Assembly: GCA_016192145.1 (NCBI GenBank)
Contig: JACPUT010000009.1
Coordinates: forward strand, 62,001-126,000
Reading direction: 5' to 3'
DNA from: Acidobacteriota bacterium
Lineage (GTDB): Bacteria; Acidobacteriota; Holophagae; Holophagales; Holophagaceae
DNA length: 64,000 bases
Shown here piece after piece: positions 11,003 to 20,693 of this stretch; position 1 is the stretch's first letter, and every line of letters starts with the position of its first letter. The position numbers and the translations under genes are program-made. Under the pieces are notes generated by a model that saw only the letters and a list, made by a program, of their open reading frames with translations, was not told where the DNA came from and did not search any database.

Positions 11003-11359
11003 TTATGCCCACCCGCCATATACCGCATTCAAGTAGTCCAATGTCGGTTGAAGTTTTTCGGCCGGGTCCGCGAGGAGTACCAACAACGGGGCGCGCCCTC
11101 CAAAGAGCGGTGCGTGGTTCGGGCTCTTCAGCCAACCCACTGGATCACCGGTCAATCGGCCGCTGATTTCGTAAATTCCGATGAAGCAACCAAGCCAATC
11201 GCACCTCTGGGAAGTTCCCGCGCTGAGCTTGCAAGCGAGTTCTTCGGGGTCGATCTCGAGGCGGCTGGCAATGTGATTGTATACCCGGAGAACCACTCCT
11301 CCATAAGGGAGAGGCAGCGGGTCGCTATGAGGCATAGCCTCTCCCTTCGGGGTTACCAC
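11003..11359 (-). CDS. Orphan Xre/MbcA/ParS-type antitoxin-like protein
   Basis: A 118-residue protein whose last 55 residues fit the toxin-binding domain of the MbcA/ParS/Xre antitoxin family (formerly DUF2384): 'GDPVGWLKSPNHAPLFGGRAPL' style sequence, then 'LLADPAEKLQPTLDYLNAVYGGW'. The N-terminal half could hold the helix-turn-helix but is not obvious. Normally such genes precede a RES-domain toxin; no RES gene is present here. The neighbour 12 bases upstream is the AhpD-like gene of the ars operon. Start may be at residue 9 (MPHSDPL). Family assignment rests on the C-terminal pattern read by eye. Confidence 0.6.
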   Translation of the reverse strand: MVTPKGEAMPHSDPLPLPYGGVVLRVYNHIASRLEIDPEELACKLSAGTSQRCDWLGCFIGIYEISGRLTGDPVGWLKSPNHAPLFGGRAPLLVLLADPAEKLQPTLDYLNAVYGGWA

Positions 11360-11371
11360 CCGTCTTAGGCC

Positions 11372-11689
11372 CTATTTCTTCTTGTCGTGAATCCAGGTGT
11401 GGACGGCGACTGTTGATGGCATCCCGAGGGTACCTGCTGCGAGGGCCACGACCTGTTCAATCTCCTCCAAGGTTATTCCCTGGGCCAGCCCCTTCCGGAC
11501 GCCGGCGTGAATCGCCCCTTGCTTCATGGCGCCAATGGCGATGGCCAGTTTGATGAGGCGTTGAGTGCGCTCATCAAGGGGCCCCGTGGCGCCAGCTTCA
11601 TGGATGACCTCCCAGGCTTCGCCGAGCTTCGGGAATCGCGCGATGAAGTCGGTGTAAGCACCCGGAGGAGGAGGGAGTTTGGGGGCCAT
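11372..11689 (-). CDS. AhpD/carboxymuconolactone decarboxylase-like protein of ars operon
   Basis: A 105-residue all-helical protein with the CMD-domain pattern: 'DERTQRLIKLAIAIGAMKQGAIHAGVRKGLAQGITLEEIEQVVALA'. The His before the helix is kept, but the redox-active CxxC of AhpD is absent (AMKQGAIH in its place), so peroxidase-type chemistry is unlikely. It follows arsA by 12 bases and resembles the domain fused to ArsD in the same operon. Members of this family recur beside ars genes, but their role is not settled. Confidence 0.75.
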   Translation of the reverse strand: MAPKLPPPPGAYTDFIARFPKLGEAWEVIHEAGATGPLDERTQRLIKLAIAIGAMKQGAIHAGVRKGLAQGITLEEIEQVVALAAGTLGMPSTVAVHTWIHDKKK

Positions 11690-11701: not shown

Positions 11702-13468
11702 CTAGGGATGGATTGACGATTCGACTTCGGGGGCCGCTTCCATGAGGTCTGCGGAGGGGTTTTCCATCCATGGCAAGACGGTCCAGGGAAAACCGAAGGA
11801 TGCGACTTCCTGGAGATAGGTGCGCTCGGCTTGCGCGCGGGCTTGGAGGATTGGGTCGGTGAGCCGAAGGGGAGAAAGCGATTGGTTGAGAATCCAGGCG
11901 AAGGGCTGGATGCCCGCGCGGCGGAGGTCTTGTTCGAGGCCCTTGGCCTCATGGACGGGGGTCGCCTCAGGCAGGGCCACAAGGATCACTTTGGTGAACC
12001 GTGGGTCTCGCAAGCGAGGAAGCAGGGTGCGAACCTCCTCGGGGAGCTCTTGCGCGGTTCGGGATACCTCCCGATGGTAGGCCTCGGCCGCATCCAGCAG
12101 CAGCAACGTGTGGCCCGTGGGGGCGGTGTCGATGACGACGAAGCCCTCCAAGCCCCGCGCGACTTCCTTGGCGAAGGCTCGGAAGACAGCGATCTCAGCC
12201 GTGCACGGGGAACGAAGGTCCTCCTCGAGGAGGGCACGTCCCGCCGGATCGAGATCCCTCCCGGCCTGGTCAATCACCTCTTCCGTGTACGCCGCCGTTT
12301 CAGCCTCGGGATCGATCCGGCTGATGGTGAGCCTTGAGGTGGTATCCCCGGCATGTGGCAGGTCGTTCCCTCCGGCAGGGTCGGTCGTCGTGAGGTGGAC
12401 CCTTCTTCCCGCAGCCGAAAGGTCGCGTGCCAAGCGCCGTGCGACGGAAGTCTTCCCGACGCCCCCCTTCCCCATGGTGAGGAGAACGCCTCCAGGGGCC
12501 TCCAGAAGGGAATGGATGAGGCTCTGCCAGGAGGATTGAGAGGATGGGATTCCCAGGTCCTCCGTGACCGGGAGCTGGGGTTGTGGGGCGGGTTCTTGGA
12601 ACAAGGCGCGAAGCCGGTCGGGCCCCAGCAAGTTCATCGACTTCAGCGACACCTCGGTACGCGGGAGCGTTTCGAGGGCGGCTGGCATTCCTGCAAGGGC
12701 CAGCTTTCCCCTAGCTTCAAGGGCGAGGGCGATCTCGTCGTGAGGGTCGGTCGCCTTGAAGACCCCGTTGACCACCAAGTGGTGGTTTCCGATGCCAAGC
12801 TGGCCCAGTTCGAATCGGGTGCGCTCGGCTTCCTGGAGGGCCGCAGGTTCCGGTCGAGTCACGAGGACGACGAGGGTGCGAGCGGGATCACCGAGGGCCG
12901 CCCGAGCCTCCGCGTAGAGCCGCTGCTGGTTCTTCAGGCCGGAGAGTGGCCCCAGACAGCTCGTTCCTCCCTGGTTATCGGCCAAAAAGTCACTCCACGC
13001 GGCCGGAAGCTCCATGAGGCGCAGGGTATGGCCCGTGGGCGCCGTGTCGAACACGAGGTGATCGAATACCCAGTCTCCGGAAGGTGTGCCGAGTAGCTTG
13101 GAGAACTCATCGAAGGCGGCGATTTCGAGGGTGCAAGCTCCGGAGAGCTGTTCCTCGATGCTGGTCACGGCCGCAGGGGGGAGGAGTTCCCGATAGGGCC
13201 CGACGACGCGTTCGCGGTAGGCCGCGGCCGCCGCTTCGGGATCGATGTTCATGGCCCAAAGGCCGGGGATGCCCGCCAGGGCCGTGGGCTCTCCGTTGAG
13301 CCGGGCACCCAGCACCTCATCCAGGTTGGATGCGGGGTCGGTGCTGACCAGGAGGACCTTCCGCCCCGCGTCCGCGAGCTGGATCGCCGTGGCGCAGGCG
13401 GTCGAGGTCTTCCCCACGCCGCCCTTTCCTGTGAATAGGAGGTTGCGGGTATGGACGGGAATGCTCAT
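11702..13468 (-). CDS. arsA: ArsA, arsenite/antimonite-stimulated ATPase
   Basis: The 588-residue protein contains two homologous P-loop halves, each with a deviant Walker A (GKGGVGKTS at about residues 15 and 330), plus signature 'DTAPTGHTLRLMELP' and 'IDTAPTGHTLLLLDAAEA' segments. This is the classic duplicated ArsA, which takes As(III) or Sb(III) from the chaperone ArsD and powers the ArsB pump. It lies 9 bases after the arsD-like gene. No arsB or acr3 lies in the window, so its membrane partner is unknown. Confidence 0.92.
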   Translation of the reverse strand: MSIPVHTRNLLFTGKGGVGKTSTACATAIQLADAGRKVLLVSTDPASNLDEVLGARLNGEPTALAGIPGLWAMNIDPEAAAAAYRERVVGPYRELLPPAAVTSIEEQLSGACTLEIAAFDEFSKLLGTPSGDWVFDHLVFDTAPTGHTLRLMELPAAWSDFLADNQGGTSCLGPLSGLKNQQRLYAEARAALGDPARTLVVLVTRPEPAALQEAERTRFELGQLGIGNHHLVVNGVFKATDPHDEIALALEARGKLALAGMPAALETLPRTEVSLKSMNLLGPDRLRALFQEPAPQPQLPVTEDLGIPSSQSSWQSLIHSLLEAPGGVLLTMGKGGVGKTSVARRLARDLSAAGRRVHLTTTDPAGGNDLPHAGDTTSRLTISRIDPEAETAAYTEEVIDQAGRDLDPAGRALLEEDLRSPCTAEIAVFRAFAKEVARGLEGFVVIDTAPTGHTLLLLDAAEAYHREVSRTAQELPEEVRTLLPRLRDPRFTKVILVALPEATPVHEAKGLEQDLRRAGIQPFAWILNQSLSPLRLTDPILQARAQAERTYLQEVASFGFPWTVLPWMENPSADLMEAAPEVESSIHP

Positions 13469-13477
13469 GGGGTCAGC

Positions 13478-14050
13478 TCAGCAGCAGCCAGAACCCGGGG
13501 CGCAGGCCGAGGCTTCCTGGATGCCCAGGTACTTCCGCGCCTGCAGGAGCATGGTCCGACTGGAGCCGTCCTGGACCGTCAGGGCGATATCTACGGCCTT
13601 GATCATGTCTTCCTTGGGCACACCCAGCTTACGGGCCTGATCGTAGTGGAACCGAAAGGCCTGATCGCTGTTGGTGGACATGGCCACTGCCAGGGCGAGG
13701 AGTTCCTGCACGGCCGGGGTGATGAGGGCCTCGCCGGCCTTCACGCCATTGAGACCCACCAAGGCCAGCAGGGTGGGCCGGTCAGGGTAGGCACCTTCGC
13801 TGATCACCTTCCCATCCAATACGAGGAGGGGGAGACAGTCATTGCCCTTAGTCTGGAGCAACTCCTTCACCAGGGGTTCAGCCGCAAAGGCACCTGGTTC
13901 CTGGGCCAGGTTGTAGCGGGTGACCTGGATGCCCATGGAAGCAAGATGGTCCAGATCGCTCGCAAACCGGGGCAGGGCGGGATCGACCTGGGGGCCGCAG
14001 ACACCGGTGGGGCAACACATGGCGGGATCGAAGACGTGGAGAGTGGTCAT
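13478..14050 (-). CDS. arsD: ArsD metallochaperone with embedded AhpD-like domain
   Basis: The ATG at 14050 is preceded by AGGAG, so the ORF-track start at 14125 is too long. Residues 1-102 are ArsD: 'MTTLHVFDPAMCCPTGVCG' holds the As(III)-binding Cys12-Cys13-Cys18 triad, followed by the thioredoxin-like fold ('LPLLVLDGKVISEGAYP'). Residues about 103-178 are a CMD/AhpD-like helical domain without CxxC. The last residues 'ACAPGSGCC' resemble the cysteine tail of plasmid R773 ArsD. The helical domain therefore appears inserted between ArsD core and tail. Function: passes As(III)/Sb(III) to ArsA encoded next to it. Confidence 0.88.
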   Translation of the reverse strand: MTTLHVFDPAMCCPTGVCGPQVDPALPRFASDLDHLASMGIQVTRYNLAQEPGAFAAEPLVKELLQTKGNDCLPLLVLDGKVISEGAYPDRPTLLALVGLNGVKAGEALITPAVQELLALAVAMSTNSDQAFRFHYDQARKLGVPKEDMIKAVDIALTVQDGSSRTMLLQARKYLGIQEASACAPGSGCC

Positions 14051-14064
14051 GTTGGCTCCTGGAA

Positions 14065-14400
14065 TCAAAGATCTGAGACGAGCACACGGAGGGCGCGGAG
14101 CGTCTGGGGGTGGATGCAGTAGCACACGCGTGGGCCCTCGGGAGTCGCCTGGACGAGCCCTGAGTCCTTCAAGACTTTGAGATGCTGGGAAATGGTGGAG
14201 GGGGCCAGATGAAAGACCTCCGCCAAATCGCCATGCAAGCAGACCTGCTTCTGCGCCAGGATGCGAAGAATGCGGACCCGGATCGGATGCGCCAGCGCCT
14301 TGGCCAGGGTGGCCAGTGATTCGTCCGGATCGTCCATGCGCAGCAGGGATTCCTGGAATTCTGGATCACACCCGCATTCCCTGAAAGCCGCGTGGCCCAT
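14065..14400 (-). CDS. arsR: ArsR-family metalloregulator
   Basis: A 111-residue winged-helix repressor with 'ALAHPIRVRILRILAQ' and recognition helix 'APSTISQHLKVLKDSGLVQ'. Candidate As(III) ligands are Cys9 and Cys11 (ECGCD) with Cys54 (QVCLHGDL); this spacing resembles the ArsR type that joins N-terminal cysteines to one in helix 3, rather than the E. coli CxCxxC form. It is the first gene of arsR-arsD-arsA-CMD, and an inverted-repeat cluster lies directly before its start. Confidence 0.88.
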   Translation of the reverse strand: MGHAAFRECGCDPEFQESLLRMDDPDESLATLAKALAHPIRVRILRILAQKQVCLHGDLAEVFHLAPSTISQHLKVLKDSGLVQATPEGPRVCYCIHPQTLRALRVLVSDL

Positions 14401-15049: not shown

Positions 15050-15226
15050 CTACTTCCCGCTTGCAATCTCGTCGGCCGCAGCGGAGGAGATCTCCTTCGC
15101 GGCCTTCTTGAATTCATTGATCCCCTGACCGAGGGATTTGCCCAACTGCGGCAACTTGGAGGGTCCGAAGAAGAGCAGCAGGGCTGCGCCGATCAGAAGG
15201 ATTTCGGTCATGCCGAGGTTGCCCAT
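15050..15226 (-). CDS. tatA: TatA/E-type twin-arginine translocase subunit
   Basis: This 58-residue gene is absent from the ORF track. It reads [20 protein letters not shown], then the hinge '[21 protein letters not shown]' and a short amphipathic helix; the 'FGPxKLPxLG' motif is diagnostic for TatA/TatE. It lacks the long charged tail of housekeeping TatA. The ribosome site AGGAG overlaps the end of the porin gene. The upstream molybdoenzyme carries a Tat signal (SRRDFLK), so this is probably a dedicated or boosting translocase component for the reductase. Confidence 0.93.
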
Positions 15227-15235
15227 GGGGTGCTC

Positions 15236-16456
15236 CTAGTAGGCGATCTGGAAGGACAGGACGAGGGTGTCCCCGCCCTGTTCTCCCGTCTGGCCGGGGC
15301 GAGGGGAAAGGAAGTTCTTGCTGCGGTTGATGTAGTTCAAGCGGATGTTGGCGGCCTTGTACTTGGCCGGATTGAAGGCGTAGGCGTAGCCCGCGGTGAT
15401 TTCCGTGAACTTCGGCGTGAAGTCGCCGCTGACCGTCTTGTAGGGATTCGTGGTGCCGTACCAGTCGTCGCCCGAGTTCCAGTTCATCAGGTCGTAGCGC
15501 CCGCCAAAGGTGTGCTTGCCCGTGGTGTAGCTGGCGGAGAGCACCGTGGACGTGAACTTCTGATCGAGATGCTGCCGCTTGGCGGTGCCCGCGGCGGTGC
15601 CCAGGGAGGGGAAGAGGCGCCCCACGAGTCCCGTGATGTATTCCGCTTCCAGGCGCCAACCGTGGTTCCGATAGGCGTAGAAGGCGCCCAGGTCGCTGGT
15701 CTTGTCCTTGTTTTCCTTCACCGCCGCCGCGGTGGCGCCGCTGGCGCCGAAGCTCAGGGACACGGCGGAGGAATCCTTCAGATCGGTGCTCCCCTGCAGG
15801 GTGTAGAGGCCGAAGTTGTGAGCGCTCCCCTGGAAGAACTCCAGGCGCAGCACCAGATCCTTCATGGCGTTCAAGTCGTTGGACTTGCCGGCGGAGAACT
15901 GGGTGTTGCCGTTGAAGAAGCCCGCGGACAGCTTGCTCCGGAAGCCCTTGGGGTCGCCGAAGGAATAAGTTCCGATGATGCCGCGATCCCGCTTGTCGCC
16001 GAAGCGGACGCCCATCATGGAGCGCTCGGCGAACATCAGATCCGCGCTGGAGGTCATGCCTTCCAGGGTCTGGTAGCCCTTGAACTGGCCCACCTTCACC
16101 TCCAGGCCCGCCGCGGGTTTGTAGACGATGGCCATGTCCTGGAGGATGGACGGGTTCGAGGCGGAGGTGGAGATGCTGGGATCGATCATCGCCTCCCAGG
16201 ACACGTTGGGGAGGATGTCCCCGGAGAGCTTGATCTCGGCGCGGCGGATCGCGAAGGTGTTTTCCTTGAAGTTCGAGGAGACGTTGGAATAGGTGCTGCC
16301 CGTGGAATTCAGGCGGAGGTTGCTGTCCAGCATCTGGGTGTACCAGGCCTGGAGGAGGCCGCTGAACTTGATCGTGGGGGTGAAAACCTTCTCCTGGGCG
16401 GCCAGGGATCCGGCGGCCAGGCAGACGAGGGACAGGCGCGTGAGGACGCGATTCAT
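15236..16456 (-). CDS. Outer-membrane porin (phosphate-selective porin O/P-like)
   Basis: The 406-residue product has a signal peptide (MNRVLTRLSLVCLAAGSLAAQ) and the start pattern of OprO/OprP-type porins: 'IKFSGLLQAWYTQMLDS', then 'FAIRRAEIKLSGDILPNVSWEAMIDPS'. It continues as beta-strand repeats to a C-terminal 'LVLSFQIAY' with terminal aromatic residue. It lies 24 bases after the molybdoenzyme and 9 before tatA. By context it may admit the oxyanion substrate or release its product; substrate selectivity cannot be read from sequence. Confidence 0.85.
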   Translation of the reverse strand: MNRVLTRLSLVCLAAGSLAAQEKVFTPTIKFSGLLQAWYTQMLDSNLRLNSTGSTYSNVSSNFKENTFAIRRAEIKLSGDILPNVSWEAMIDPSISTSASNPSILQDMAIVYKPAAGLEVKVGQFKGYQTLEGMTSSADLMFAERSMMGVRFGDKRDRGIIGTYSFGDPKGFRSKLSAGFFNGNTQFSAGKSNDLNAMKDLVLRLEFFQGSAHNFGLYTLQGSTDLKDSSAVSLSFGASGATAAAVKENKDKTSDLGAFYAYRNHGWRLEAEYITGLVGRLFPSLGTAAGTAKRQHLDQKFTSTVLSASYTTGKHTFGGRYDLMNWNSGDDWYGTTNPYKTVSGDFTPKFTEITAGYAYAFNPAKYKAANIRLNYINRSKNFLSPRPGQTGEQGGDTLVLSFQIAY

Positions 16457-16480
16457 GCGGAACTCCGGGATGAGGGGGGG

Positions 16481-19400
16481 TTAGCGGACCGGAACGAGCC
16501 GGACCTTGGTGTCGTAGAAGGAAACGCTGCCGCCGACCTTGTCGATCATGCAGGTGTTTTTGAGGTGGGGATCCACCCACATGGCCGCATTGGCGTGGAT
16601 GCCACCCTGGCGATGGGGATCGGCCTTGATGACCTCACCATCGACCACGAGATCCATGGCACCCGTCGCCCAATGGCCGTGGCCGAGGGTGAAGGTGATG
16701 ACGCCCGGACGAATCGTTTCGGTGATCTCCACCTTGCCGATCATGTCCTTCTTTCGGCCATTGCCCAGGTTCCAGGTGCCCTCGGGGTTCGTGGCGGAGA
16801 CCACCCGGACCTGTTGCCCCTTCTTGAAGCCGAGGCGCTTGGCGTCGCTCGTGTGGACGAGGATCGCGTTCTCGGGATACAGGGCCGTGAGGTAGCTGTT
16901 GGTGATGGTCCGGGACTTGGTCATCCGCACGTCGCGCTGGGTGACCAGGTGGAGGTCATGCCCCTTGGCCAAGGCATCCGGGGCGTTGCCCAAGGTGTCG
17001 GCGATGGGCACGAAGGTGGCCATTCCCAGGAAATGCTTGCCCGTGAAGGCGTCCTTCACCTTGTAGGTCTTCTCCTGGTAGATGTTGATCTGCTTGGCGT
17101 ACTTGTTGGCGACGTGGTCGCCCTTGTAGCTGTTTTCCTGGGAATCGAAGCGGCCACCACGGGTGAGCACATACGCCACCTTCTTCCAGGAATCTCCACA
17201 GATGGCAGCCCAGCGCACGGGATCGAAGACATTGCGGGGCAGGTGGCGGCGCGACTTCTGGAAGATCTGCATCTCCTCCGAGGAGGCATCGGGCACGCTC
17301 TCCTTGCCGTCGTGGGCGAGGTTCGCGACCATGCGGAGGTAGAAATCATCCGGGCGATTGAGATCCTTCCCAGGCCCGAAGGCGTCCTTCCCGAAACCAG
17401 GCATGCCCAGCTTTTCCGCCAGGGCGAGCCAAACGGTCTCGATGGAGATGGGCTGATCTTCGCCAAAGACCTTCACCACCTCGTTGGGGGAGGCGATCAC
17501 AGGCTGGCGCACGGGTTGGATCTTCACCGGCATGTTGGGGTGACTGCCCTGGAACTCCCAGCGCTCAAGGTAATGGAGGTCCGGGAAGATGTAATCCGCG
17601 TAAAGGCTGGTGGTGCCGACGGTGATGTCGCTGGCGAAGTAGAGGGGGATCTTCTCCAGGTCCAGGAGGGCCGCGATCTGGGTGTGACCGGCGGGCAACG
17701 CGTAGCCTGGAGTGCCCATGTAGCTGAAGAGCACTTTCGTCGCGTAGGGGTACGCATCCGCCATGGAGGGGATGATTTCCTCATAGACATCGGAGGCCAG
17801 AGGCCACCAATTCCGTTTCGCGGGGTAATTCGCGAAGACCGTGGACTCTTCGTACTTGGCGTCATGGCGGATGATCGACACGCCAAAGGGCTTCCCGCTC
17901 TTGGGGGTGATCTTGGGCAGGGGGAAGGGCTGACGATCGGTCTTGGTGCCGTCCACGTTGAACGTGGAAGCGGCGATCATGCCCCCGGTCCAGTCGAAAT
18001 TCCCGATGAGTAGGTTCAAATTCATCAAGGCGCTGATGTTGTAGAACCCATTCGTGTGCTGGGCCGGTCCGCGGTGCATGTCCACGCCCGCCTTCTTGCC
18101 ATGGCTGGTGAACTCCTTGGCGACTTCGGTGATCACCTTGGCGGTGGTGCCACATTCCTTGGCCCACTCCACCAGGCTCTTCGCCTGGGCCGCTTCAAGC
18201 ATGATCTGGAGGCTGGACTTGGCCTTGATGACCGTGCCCTTCTCGTCCTTGAACTCGGTGGTGACGAAGAGGTCACCCTCCACCGGGTCCTTGTCGTCGT
18301 TGGGGTCGACGGCGATGGCCTTCCCATCTTTCATCACGACCAGGAACTCGAATTCGGATTCCTTCCCGTCGGCTGCCTTCCGGATCTCCTTGGCCTTGAT
18401 CCCGACCTCATGGGCCCGGAGGAGCGTGGTGGGTTCGCCTTCCTTGCCAAGTTTCACCAGGCAGGGGCCGTTGGACCAGGTGGTCTCCTTGTCCGCGGTC
18501 GCGGCGGCCTTGTTGGCGTTTCCCAGGTACCTGGCGTCATAGCGTTTGTTTTCCAGGATCCACCGGGTCATGCCCATGGCGAAGGCCGCGTCGGTTCCCG
18601 GTTTCACCGGAACCCACCGCGCGCCCTTGGAGGCGAGCTTCGTGTATCTGGGATCGATCACGGTGAACTTGAGCTTTCCTTCCACCATCCGATCGGTCAT
18701 GCGGGACGTTCGGTTCGTGGGGCCATAGTTGGCGTCGAAGAGGTTGGCACCCACGAATAGGATGTATTCGGCGTTCTCCTGATCCACCTGCCAGTAGAAT
18801 TTCTGGCCTCCGGAAAAACCGGCGCCGTCGTACTGCTCGCTCATGGCCTTGGAGGCGAAGTAGAGGGAGCCTTGGCAAACGGTCGTGTGGCCGTGGGTGT
18901 TGTTGGTGCCGAAGGCATCGGTGAATCGCTTGTCGAAATCAGCCCGGCCACCCTTCTTGCGGCCCCACATGTAGACGAATTGGTTGTTCTTGGGGCCGAA
19001 GTCCGGGTGGTCTGGATCGATGAGGGCGTCCAGGTGAGCGGCATGCTTCGTCTTGAAGTCGGCCACGGTCATCTTCTTCTTTCGGATGAGCGCCACATCG
19101 CCAGCCATGGCCGCCATGACCTTGGGGTCTTTCATCACCCAGAGGTCCTTGAGGCCAGTGATGCTGCGACCCTCTTCGCCGGAGACGTGGGCGAAGAGTT
19201 TGCCGCCGTTGACGATCTCGTCGATGGCCTGATCGAAGGGGACACTGACCCACTTCCCCTCCCCCCGCTTGCCGGCGCGCTTGAGCACCTTCCGGATGCG
19301 ATAGGGATCGTAGGCGCCCGTGTGGCCGGCCTGGCCCTTGGGGCAGAGGCAGCCATCGATGGTCGCCGCAGCTCCCAAATCCAGGCTCATGGGAAGGTGG

Positions 19401-19696
19401 GGGTGCAGGGTAAAGGGATTGTAGGGGCTGCCATCGATCTTCACGGCCACGCCATCCATCACCTTGACCTTGAGTCCGCAGCCCGTGTTGCAGTTGAGGC
19501 AGGTGGTGTAGAGGGTGTTCTCGGGCTTCATGAGCTCGTAGGTCGCGGCCGCGCTCAGCTCTCCCTTTTCCGCCTGCTCCACGAGACCCCTGGCCCAGGT
19601 CGTCTGACTGGCGGCCATGGCACCGCCGCCCACAGCGGCCGTCACCTTGAGGAAGTCCCGGCGGGAGGAGCCGCCTTGGTTCGGCTTCTCAGCCAT
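16481..19696 (-). CDS. Tat-exported molybdopterin oxidoreductase, TtrA/ArrA-like
   Basis: A 1071-residue DMSO-reductase-superfamily catalytic subunit. Tat motif SRRDFLK at residues 11-17; N-terminal Fe-S motif Cys66-x2-Cys69-x3-Cys73 with the fourth Cys at 116 or 118 (GCLCPKGQAG); candidate Mo ligand Cys274 in 'HTTVCQGSLYF'; late motifs 'YVLTRGGRF' and 'ITFTLGHGHWATGA'. Length is close to tetrathionate reductase TtrA (about 1020) and longer than typical ArrA (about 850). Relatives reduce tetrathionate, arsenate, selenate or antimonate. The surrounding ars genes favour a group 15 oxyanion, but that is inference. It overlaps the Fe-S subunit gene by 8 bases. The 1037-aa plus-strand ORF over this locus is an antisense shadow. 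Confidence 0.9.
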   Translation of the reverse strand: MAEKPNQGGSSRRDFLKVTAAVGGGAMAASQTTWARGLVEQAEKGELSAAATYELMKPENTLYTTCLNCNTGCGLKVKVMDGVAVKIDGSPYNPFTLHPHLPMSLDLGAAATIDGCLCPKGQAGHTGAYDPYRIRKVLKRAGKRGEGKWVSVPFDQAIDEIVNGGKLFAHVSGEEGRSITGLKDLWVMKDPKVMAAMAGDVALIRKKKMTVADFKTKHAAHLDALIDPDHPDFGPKNNQFVYMWGRKKGGRADFDKRFTDAFGTNNTHGHTTVCQGSLYFASKAMSEQYDGAGFSGGQKFYWQVDQENAEYILFVGANLFDANYGPTNRTSRMTDRMVEGKLKFTVIDPRYTKLASKGARWVPVKPGTDAAFAMGMTRWILENKRYDARYLGNANKAAATADKETTWSNGPCLVKLGKEGEPTTLLRAHEVGIKAKEIRKAADGKESEFEFLVVMKDGKAIAVDPNDDKDPVEGDLFVTTEFKDEKGTVIKAKSSLQIMLEAAQAKSLVEWAKECGTTAKVITEVAKEFTSHGKKAGVDMHRGPAQHTNGFYNISALMNLNLLIGNFDWTGGMIAASTFNVDGTKTDRQPFPLPKITPKSGKPFGVSIIRHDAKYEESTVFANYPAKRNWWPLASDVYEEIIPSMADAYPYATKVLFSYMGTPGYALPAGHTQIAALLDLEKIPLYFASDITVGTTSLYADYIFPDLHYLERWEFQGSHPNMPVKIQPVRQPVIASPNEVVKVFGEDQPISIETVWLALAEKLGMPGFGKDAFGPGKDLNRPDDFYLRMVANLAHDGKESVPDASSEEMQIFQKSRRHLPRNVFDPVRWAAICGDSWKKVAYVLTRGGRFDSQENSYKGDHVANKYAKQINIYQEKTYKVKDAFTGKHFLGMATFVPIADTLGNAPDALAKGHDLHLVTQRDVRMTKSRTITNSYLTALYPENAILVHTSDAKRLGFKKGQQVRVVSATNPEGTWNLGNGRKKDMIGKVEITETIRPGVITFTLGHGHWATGAMDLVVDGEVIKADPHRQGGIHANAAMWVDPHLKNTCMIDKVGGSVSFYDTKVRLVPVR

Positions 19697-20444
19697 AAAT
19701 CACCTCCAGATTCTCGTCCGAGATGTAATAGACCCTGGGCTTGGTGCCCTTCTTGGGCTTCAGGAACTGCACCTTGTTCGCTTTGATGACCTTGTAAATC
19801 TCGCTCTCGGGGTCATTCACATCGCCGAAGTAAGTCGCACGCCCCACGCAGGTGGTCACGCACTCGGGAAGCATCCCGTTCTCCAAGCGATGGAGGCAGA
19901 AGTGGCATTTCCGGGCCTTCTCCATGGGCGGCGTGTCTTTCGCCCGCTTGGCCGCGATTCCGTATTCGAAGGAGGGCATCGACTCGTATTTCTGCCGCTC
20001 GGGGGTGCCGTCGGTATGGAACAACCCCTCGTCCAGGTCCCTGGCGCCATAGGGGCAGGCGGAAACACATGAGCCGCAGCCGATGCACTCCTGGTAGTTG
20101 ATGAGCACGAGGCCCGCGCCCACGCCCTCTGATTCCTTCCAGGTGGCGCCTCCCTTTCCGGGCTTTGGACATTCGGCCACGCAGGGCGGATGGTCGCAAT
20201 GCATGCACGGCCGGGGCAGGAATACCCTCTTGGGGTTGGGATATGTGCCGCGCTGGAACTCCAACACGGGGCGGTACACGATTCCCGGGGGGAGCTTGTT
20301 CTCGGACATGCACGCCACGGTGCAGCCGTGGCAGCCCACGCATTTACGCAGATCGATGAGCATGGCCCACCTACGCCCTTTGGCGGACCTCCCAAGGGCG
20401 CGCTTGGCGTCCTCCTGCATGGTGACCAAAACGTCCTTCGACAT
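19689..20444 (-). CDS. Four-cluster ferredoxin subunit of the molybdoenzyme (TtrB/ArrB-like)
   Basis: The ATG at 20444 has GGAGAGG in front; the track start at 20570 is too long. The 251-residue protein holds four cysteine groups of the DMSO-reductase B-subunit family: 'CVGCHGCTVACMSE', 'CMHCDHPPCVAECP', 'CIGCGSCVSACPYGA' and 'CHFCLHRLENGMLPECVTTC'. It carries electrons to the catalytic subunit and is probably co-exported with it through the partner's Tat signal. No NrfD/TtrC-type membrane subunit follows, so the electron donor must be another protein such as a periplasmic or membrane cytochrome, as in two-subunit ArrAB. Confidence 0.92.
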   Translation of the reverse strand: MSKDVLVTMQEDAKRALGRSAKGRRWAMLIDLRKCVGCHGCTVACMSENKLPPGIVYRPVLEFQRGTYPNPKRVFLPRPCMHCDHPPCVAECPKPGKGGATWKESEGVGAGLVLINYQECIGCGSCVSACPYGARDLDEGLFHTDGTPERQKYESMPSFEYGIAAKRAKDTPPMEKARKCHFCLHRLENGMLPECVTTCVGRATYFGDVNDPESEIYKVIKANKVQFLKPKKGTKPRVYYISDENLEVIYG

Positions 20445-20693
20445 GGCCTCTCCTTGCCCGGGAATGGGCACGCGACGCACCGTGCCCCGAGCAGGGGGCA
20501 GGGCTGGTTCAGGGTGGGTAATGGGTATTCGGGGCTGCGGGTGCTTTCCTAGGCGGAGCGGAGCATCCACCGTCGTTCATCGCCATCCCCCGAAATCAGG
20601 GAACGGTTGGGGCAGCTGAACGAGAGGGTGGATGGCAAGGCGATCACCGTAGGGTTGCGATTGCTCCTCATCAGGATCGCGCTGTCCTAAAAA

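Follow-up and report, generated by a model that had tools for sequence, protein, structure and literature searches.

The window, a stretch of 64,000 nucleotides from an Acidobacteriota genome, encodes an ArsD metallochaperone in which a CMD/AhpD-type domain lies between the thioredoxin-fold core and the cysteine tail. The fusion gene occupies positions 13478..14050 on the minus strand and encodes 190 amino acids, comprising an ArsD core (residues 1-104, 13739..14050), a CMD/AhpD-type helical domain (residues 105-178, 13517..13738) and the C-terminal cysteine tail CAPGSGCC (residues 183-190, 13481..13504), all on that strand. The frame opens with an ATG, and a Shine-Dalgarno-like AGGAG lies 5 nt upstream (14056-14060, read on the minus strand). 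Besides the translation and this AGGAG, the gene is supported by Pfam matches to both families, an AlphaFold2 model and 15 further ArsD-CMD proteins.

Residues 1-104 matched Pfam ArsD (PF06953) with E 2.9e-38 and 131 bits against a cut-off of 27, and the NCBIfam ArsD model NF033727 scored 115.6, above its cut-off of 90. The PDB entries 3mwh, 3kgk and 3ktb aligned by sequence over residues 1-105, and the same three ArsD structures were the top Foldseek matches (E down to 2e-9). Cys12, Cys13 and Cys18 (13997..14017, minus strand) are found at exactly the positions given in the sequence-only reading, and they are invariant in the nine fusions of alignment A1. In ArsD these cysteines are essential and form the As(III) site (Lin, Yang & Rosen 2007, as far as cited in PMC4562236), and the bound As(III) is then passed to ArsA (PMC2963123, PMC6205960).

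The same reading had proposed an embedded CMD-type domain, and this was borne out by three methods. Pfam CMD matched residues 104-161 (E 1.4e-6, 28.6 bits, cut-off 23), and when the C-terminal 88 amino acids were searched alone the match was again CMD (E 7.3e-7; 28.6-29.5 bits in these searches). The CMD protein 7y4r aligned by sequence to residues 90-171 with E 0.0013. An AlphaFold2 monomer model, built from a 40-sequence alignment (A2), had a mean pLDDT of 88.6 and a pTM of 0.66; it shows a thioredoxin-like ArsD core, a loose linker at residues 101-110 (pLDDT about 61) and a CMD-type bundle with helices 112-125, 129-141 and 146-175. Foldseek matched the model, more weakly than to ArsD, to the CMD/AhpD structures 7y4r, 3bey, 2ouw, 1vke and 2cwq (E 0.003-0.05). 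Because Pfam, AlphaFold2 and Foldseek agree on both parts, an ordinary ArsD extension is excluded, and so is a sequencing fusion. That two genes were joined by sequencing, or that this is just a longer ArsD C-terminus, is exceedingly improbable: the same fusion recurs in 15 other proteins whose genomes were assembled independently, the stretch 105-178 adopts a CMD-type bundle, and in these phyla most ordinary ArsDs stop about 20-30 residues past the core.

C-terminal vicinal cysteines are present in R773 ArsD and missing from some ArsDs. The window protein ends in ACAPGSGCC, with one CC pair and a single cysteine. Unfused ArsDs of the same phylum (L012, L013, L015, L016, L018 and L020) close with the octapeptide pattern C[AKT]PGSGCC as well, and it is seen in the unfused ArsD L131. 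Since same-phylum unfused ArsDs end in this way, the proposal that the domain was inserted before an ArsD-like tail is supported. Free-standing CMDs bear cysteine tails too (for example CLPGGTCC), so the window tail may, judging by sequence, have come with the CMD rather than with the ArsD.

Searches with either the window protein or alignment A1 as query, in four sampled phyla, recovered the 15 further ArsD-CMD proteins in two of them, the phylum of the window and the Myxococcota. The family of the window contributed seven fusions (G260, G384, G124, G158, G228, G418 and G431) plus two in G430; other families of its phylum contributed three (G199, G330 and G282), and three came from the phylum of L032, a record classed as Myxococcota (G396, which is L032, G550 and G637). 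Within the family, ArsD was fused in all nine genomes with an ArsD match and unfused in none. Among the stretches fetched for the 15 fusions, 13 contain arsA; those of L148 and L153 do not. No ArsD-CMD fusion was detected in 399 genomes of the Pseudomonadota (the phylum of a Methylotenera) or in 289 genomes of the phylum of G719. Among plasmids, 1984 records had an ArsD match and none covered 80% of the fused query; in viral contigs the matches were limited to the ArsD core.

Several of these loci have features of their own. In G330 (contig C307; L038:1767-3200, minus strand) a single open frame encodes an ArsM-ArsD-CMD triple fusion, and arsA comes straight after it. The G282 operon (L041:1195-7136) reads acr3-arsM-arsD/CMD-thioredoxin-thioredoxin-DsbD/CcdA-arsA, which places thiol-redox genes within an ars operon. 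In G072, arsD, a CxxC-bearing CMD and arsA are separate adjoining genes. Two ArsDs (L142:883-1821, minus strand; L146:1501-2442, plus strand) carry C-terminal extensions of about 190 residues that start out rich in Cys, with a probable membrane helix; the L142 extension had no Pfam match.

A glutamate ahead of a CxxCxxxH motif is typical of AhpD. Fourteen of the 15 fused relatives carry this site as NC(E/Q)xCFxxH, and a Glu precedes the first Cys by 12 residues. In the window protein it reads NSDQAFRFH: alignment and conservation counts place Ser-Asp-Gln-Ala at the CxxC position (residues 128-131; 13658..13669, minus strand), with Ser128 and Ala131 in place of the cysteines, while Glu116 and His135 are kept. 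The CxxCxxxH of AhpD-type thiol peroxidases and disulfide reductases is thus absent, as the sequence-only reading had noted. What could not be seen from the window alone is that the usual fused domain carries this site, which makes the window protein a variant, lacking the redox site, of an architecture that recurs. On the aligned sequences, the absence of CxxC is a trait of the window copy and an exception within the ArsD-CMD architecture, since 14 of the 15 relatives keep CxxCxxxH. The only other protein without it is L148 (7865-8476, minus strand; G430, contig C149), whose site reads VGSERAFQVHH; L148 also lacks Cys13 and Cys18, has a long Cys-rich tail and has no ars genes nearby.

Two histories were weighed for the cysteine-free site. 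In the first, a single ancestral CxxC-bearing fusion gave rise to all copies, and the window copy lost its cysteines while its domain drifted towards having no function. Of 39 positions conserved at 90% or more in the CxxC fusions, the window differs at 16, both cysteines among them, a point in favour of such decay. The other 23 are kept, however, including Glu116, Phe132 and His135; the frame is open, the AlphaFold2 model is confident, and the CMD-domain tree does not favour this history. We consider it unlikely. In the second, a free-standing, CxxC-less and Cys-tailed CMD relative of the family joined an ArsD independently, so that the domain would never have been redox-active in this lineage; we estimate the chance of this at about one half. 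The CMD tree puts the window together with the family's CxxC-less free-standing proteins (support 96/92, and 94/85 without six site columns), and keeping it with the CxxC fusions was rejected at p-AU 0.027, a value that rose to 0.074 without the site columns. Residues L120, I155 and L157 are common to the window and the CxxC-less free-standing CMDs. The second CxxC-less fusion, L148, is placed by the tree among the free-standing CxxC-less proteins. On the ArsD-core tree a single clade of all fused proteins gave p-AU 0.046, also suggesting that their cores are not one clade, but the window together with the main fused group gave 0.165. Both trees are small (74 and 102 columns) and the window branch is long, which tempers these values. 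The window domain also keeps Y136, A139 and R140, typical of the CxxC fusions, and its tail is short and ArsD-like, whereas free-standing CMDs have a long Cys-rich one. Taken together, the trees weakly suggest more than one fusion event.

Neighbouring genes were assigned with simple rules on open reading frames and similarity. On the minus strand of the window the order is arsR, arsD/CMD, arsA, cmd2 (a 105-residue CMD protein) and a 118-residue open reading frame, with gaps of 9-14 nt. The arsR gene (14065..14400), 14 nt upstream of arsD/CMD, encodes an ArsR/SmtB metalloregulator (NCBIfam NF033788, 7.8e-22, above cut-off). The arsA gene (11702..13468, 588 amino acids) starts 9 nt downstream of arsD/CMD; its product scored 713 bits with TIGR04291 and was aligned with the solved ArsA 9nbl (1f48 also matches), which showed both halves and the Cys-bearing motifs GACT, SCLGP and SPCT, indicating an intact ArsA. 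The last gene (11003..11359) gave a borderline match to an Xre/MbcA/ParS C-terminal domain (Pfam PF09722, 2.5e-5, 24.6 bits against 24.5). No pump gene lies within this run. One acr3 was detected in the genome, on another contig, and the genome gave no ArsB match. The genome contains a second ars operon (L058; G000:C1:88000-105000) with the order arsR-arsI-arsM-SaoE-like permease-arsC-acr3. Immediately upstream of the ars genes of the window (15078-20570, minus strand) lie a TAT-type molybdopterin oxidoreductase, an Fe-S subunit, a phosphate-type porin and, by eye, a TatA-like open reading frame; the best match of the oxidoreductase was tetrathionate reductase TtrA, below cut-off, and ArrA was weaker.

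The gene after arsA (cmd2; 11372..11689, minus strand) had been read as a second, free-standing copy of the ArsD-borne domain type. Its CMD nature stands (Pfam CMD 3.2e-8), as does its lack of CxxC, the protein having no cysteine at all. As a duplicate of the ArsD-borne domain it was rejected: it belongs to a different, common CMD subfamily, has a paralogue with 71% identity elsewhere in the genome (contig C7) and gave no BLASTP alignment with the ArsD-borne domain at E<=100. None of the cmd2 relatives inspected was linked to arsA or arsD. By these comparisons cmd2 is probably a separate matter from the ArsD-borne module.

Free-standing CMDs of another kind do occur in arsenic operons. Among the loci fetched from the family, roughly a dozen have a Cys-tailed CMD next to arsR and acr3, and arsN, arsC and arsM are frequently present too; other members of the group have no ars genes nearby. 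An example is L161:4905-5435 (minus strand), where a CxxC-less CMD with a long Cys-rich tail lies between arsR and acr3, as also in L162, L166, L177, L178 and others, from many genomes of the family. The tailed CMD in this position is apparently an undescribed ars operon gene.

We propose that As(III) is delivered to ArsA by the ArsD core, with the fused domain assisting in thiol-redox chemistry in most relatives and serving as a structural, redox-dead module in the window protein, a reading to which we give even chances. By analogy with ArsD biochemistry, the core would bind As(III) via Cys12, Cys13 and Cys18 and hand it to ArsA. The run being pump-less, ArsA is assumed to pair with the Acr3 from the other contig. 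The domain of most relatives would be a dithiol module built into the protein, which would either keep the vicinal thiols in the reduced state or help As(III) move between core and tail, and it could be fed by thioredoxin or CcdA-type partners. The window domain, incapable of dithiol chemistry, would most likely serve for oligomerisation or docking, grouping several ArsD cores and tails near ArsA. An oligomeric role is suggested because CMD-fold proteins form trimers or hexamers. The profile and fold matches of both domains, the recurrence of the architecture with CxxCxxxH usually kept, the thioredoxin/CcdA genes of the G282 operon, the tailed CMDs beside arsR, acr3, arsC and arsM, the intact ArsA and the Acr3 of the genome count in favour of this proposal. 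Against it, the three elements core, CxxC and tail are not always combined, since among the CxxC fusions the tails of L149 and L150 have no cysteine and those of three others only one; two fusions (L148 and L153) have no arsA nearby, and the window operon has no pump.

The domain could instead be a direct ligand or sensor of As(III), with the CxxC and the tail cysteines forming a second arsenic site and no redox or structural role. In most ars-linked forms, fused or free-standing, the CMD is indeed followed by a Cys-rich tail, but the domain of the window protein is itself free of cysteine, leaving binding to the tail alone, and the conserved AhpD-relay Glu and His of the fusions suggest thiol chemistry over plain binding. 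We regard this as unlikely.

ArsD serves as the reference among arsenic metallochaperones, and the helper-or-scaffold proposal bears on the role of its C-terminal cysteines and on how its thiols stay reduced in the cell. The repeated joining of ArsD, and once of ArsM-ArsD, to an AhpD-type domain, and the tailed CMDs of ars operons, suggest that the pathway includes a partner with a thiol-redox or scaffold role. Since variants with and without CxxC occur in nature, the contribution of each part of the domain can be put to the test. The open literature searched, which leaves most subscription papers aside, yielded no description of ArsD-CMD, and the recurrent architecture suggests that bacterial arsenic resistance has an accessory module not yet described. 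More broadly, and with a little less than even confidence, we suggest that arsenic resistance in these bacteria regularly includes a Cys-tailed AhpD/CMD protein that has gone undescribed, one that stands alone in arsR-cmd-acr3-arsN-arsC-arsM operons and has been fused more than once to ArsD and once to ArsM-ArsD. It would form an arm of As(III) trafficking with thiol-redox and scaffold functions, and the window protein would be its redox-free version.

Compared with known systems, the window protein shares with ArsD (PF06953, NF033727; 3MWH, 3KGK, 3KTB) the core fold, Cys12/13/18, a C-terminal Cys tail and the position between arsR and arsA; it differs in the 74-residue CMD domain between core and tail and in a run without a pump gene. 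With the AhpD/CMD superfamily (PF02627; 7Y4R RclX, 3BEY, 2OUW) it has in common the helical fold and the active-site Glu and His, whereas its domain is fused to ArsD and lacks the CxxC that 14 of 15 fused relatives have. The ars fusions described in PMC6205960 (ArsD or ArsC with ArsN, ArsR-ArsC and AqpS-ArsC) likewise join ars proteins, but no AhpD/CMD domain is among those described there. A precedent for a link between AhpD and arsenic exists in the known selenoproteins that join an AhpD-type domain to ArsM (NF041537; PMC13188914). This family and the arsenosugar-associated peroxidase-like TIGR04169 also tie an AhpD-type domain to an arsenic protein, and they were the best NCBIfam matches of the window domain, although weak (E about 0.01-0.04) and far below their cut-offs. 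The window protein has no methyltransferase domain and reached 12.6 bits against the 510 of NF041537. In NF041537 and TIGR04169 the partner is a methyltransferase with selenocysteine; in the window protein the partner is ArsD, and the site holds neither Cys nor Sec.
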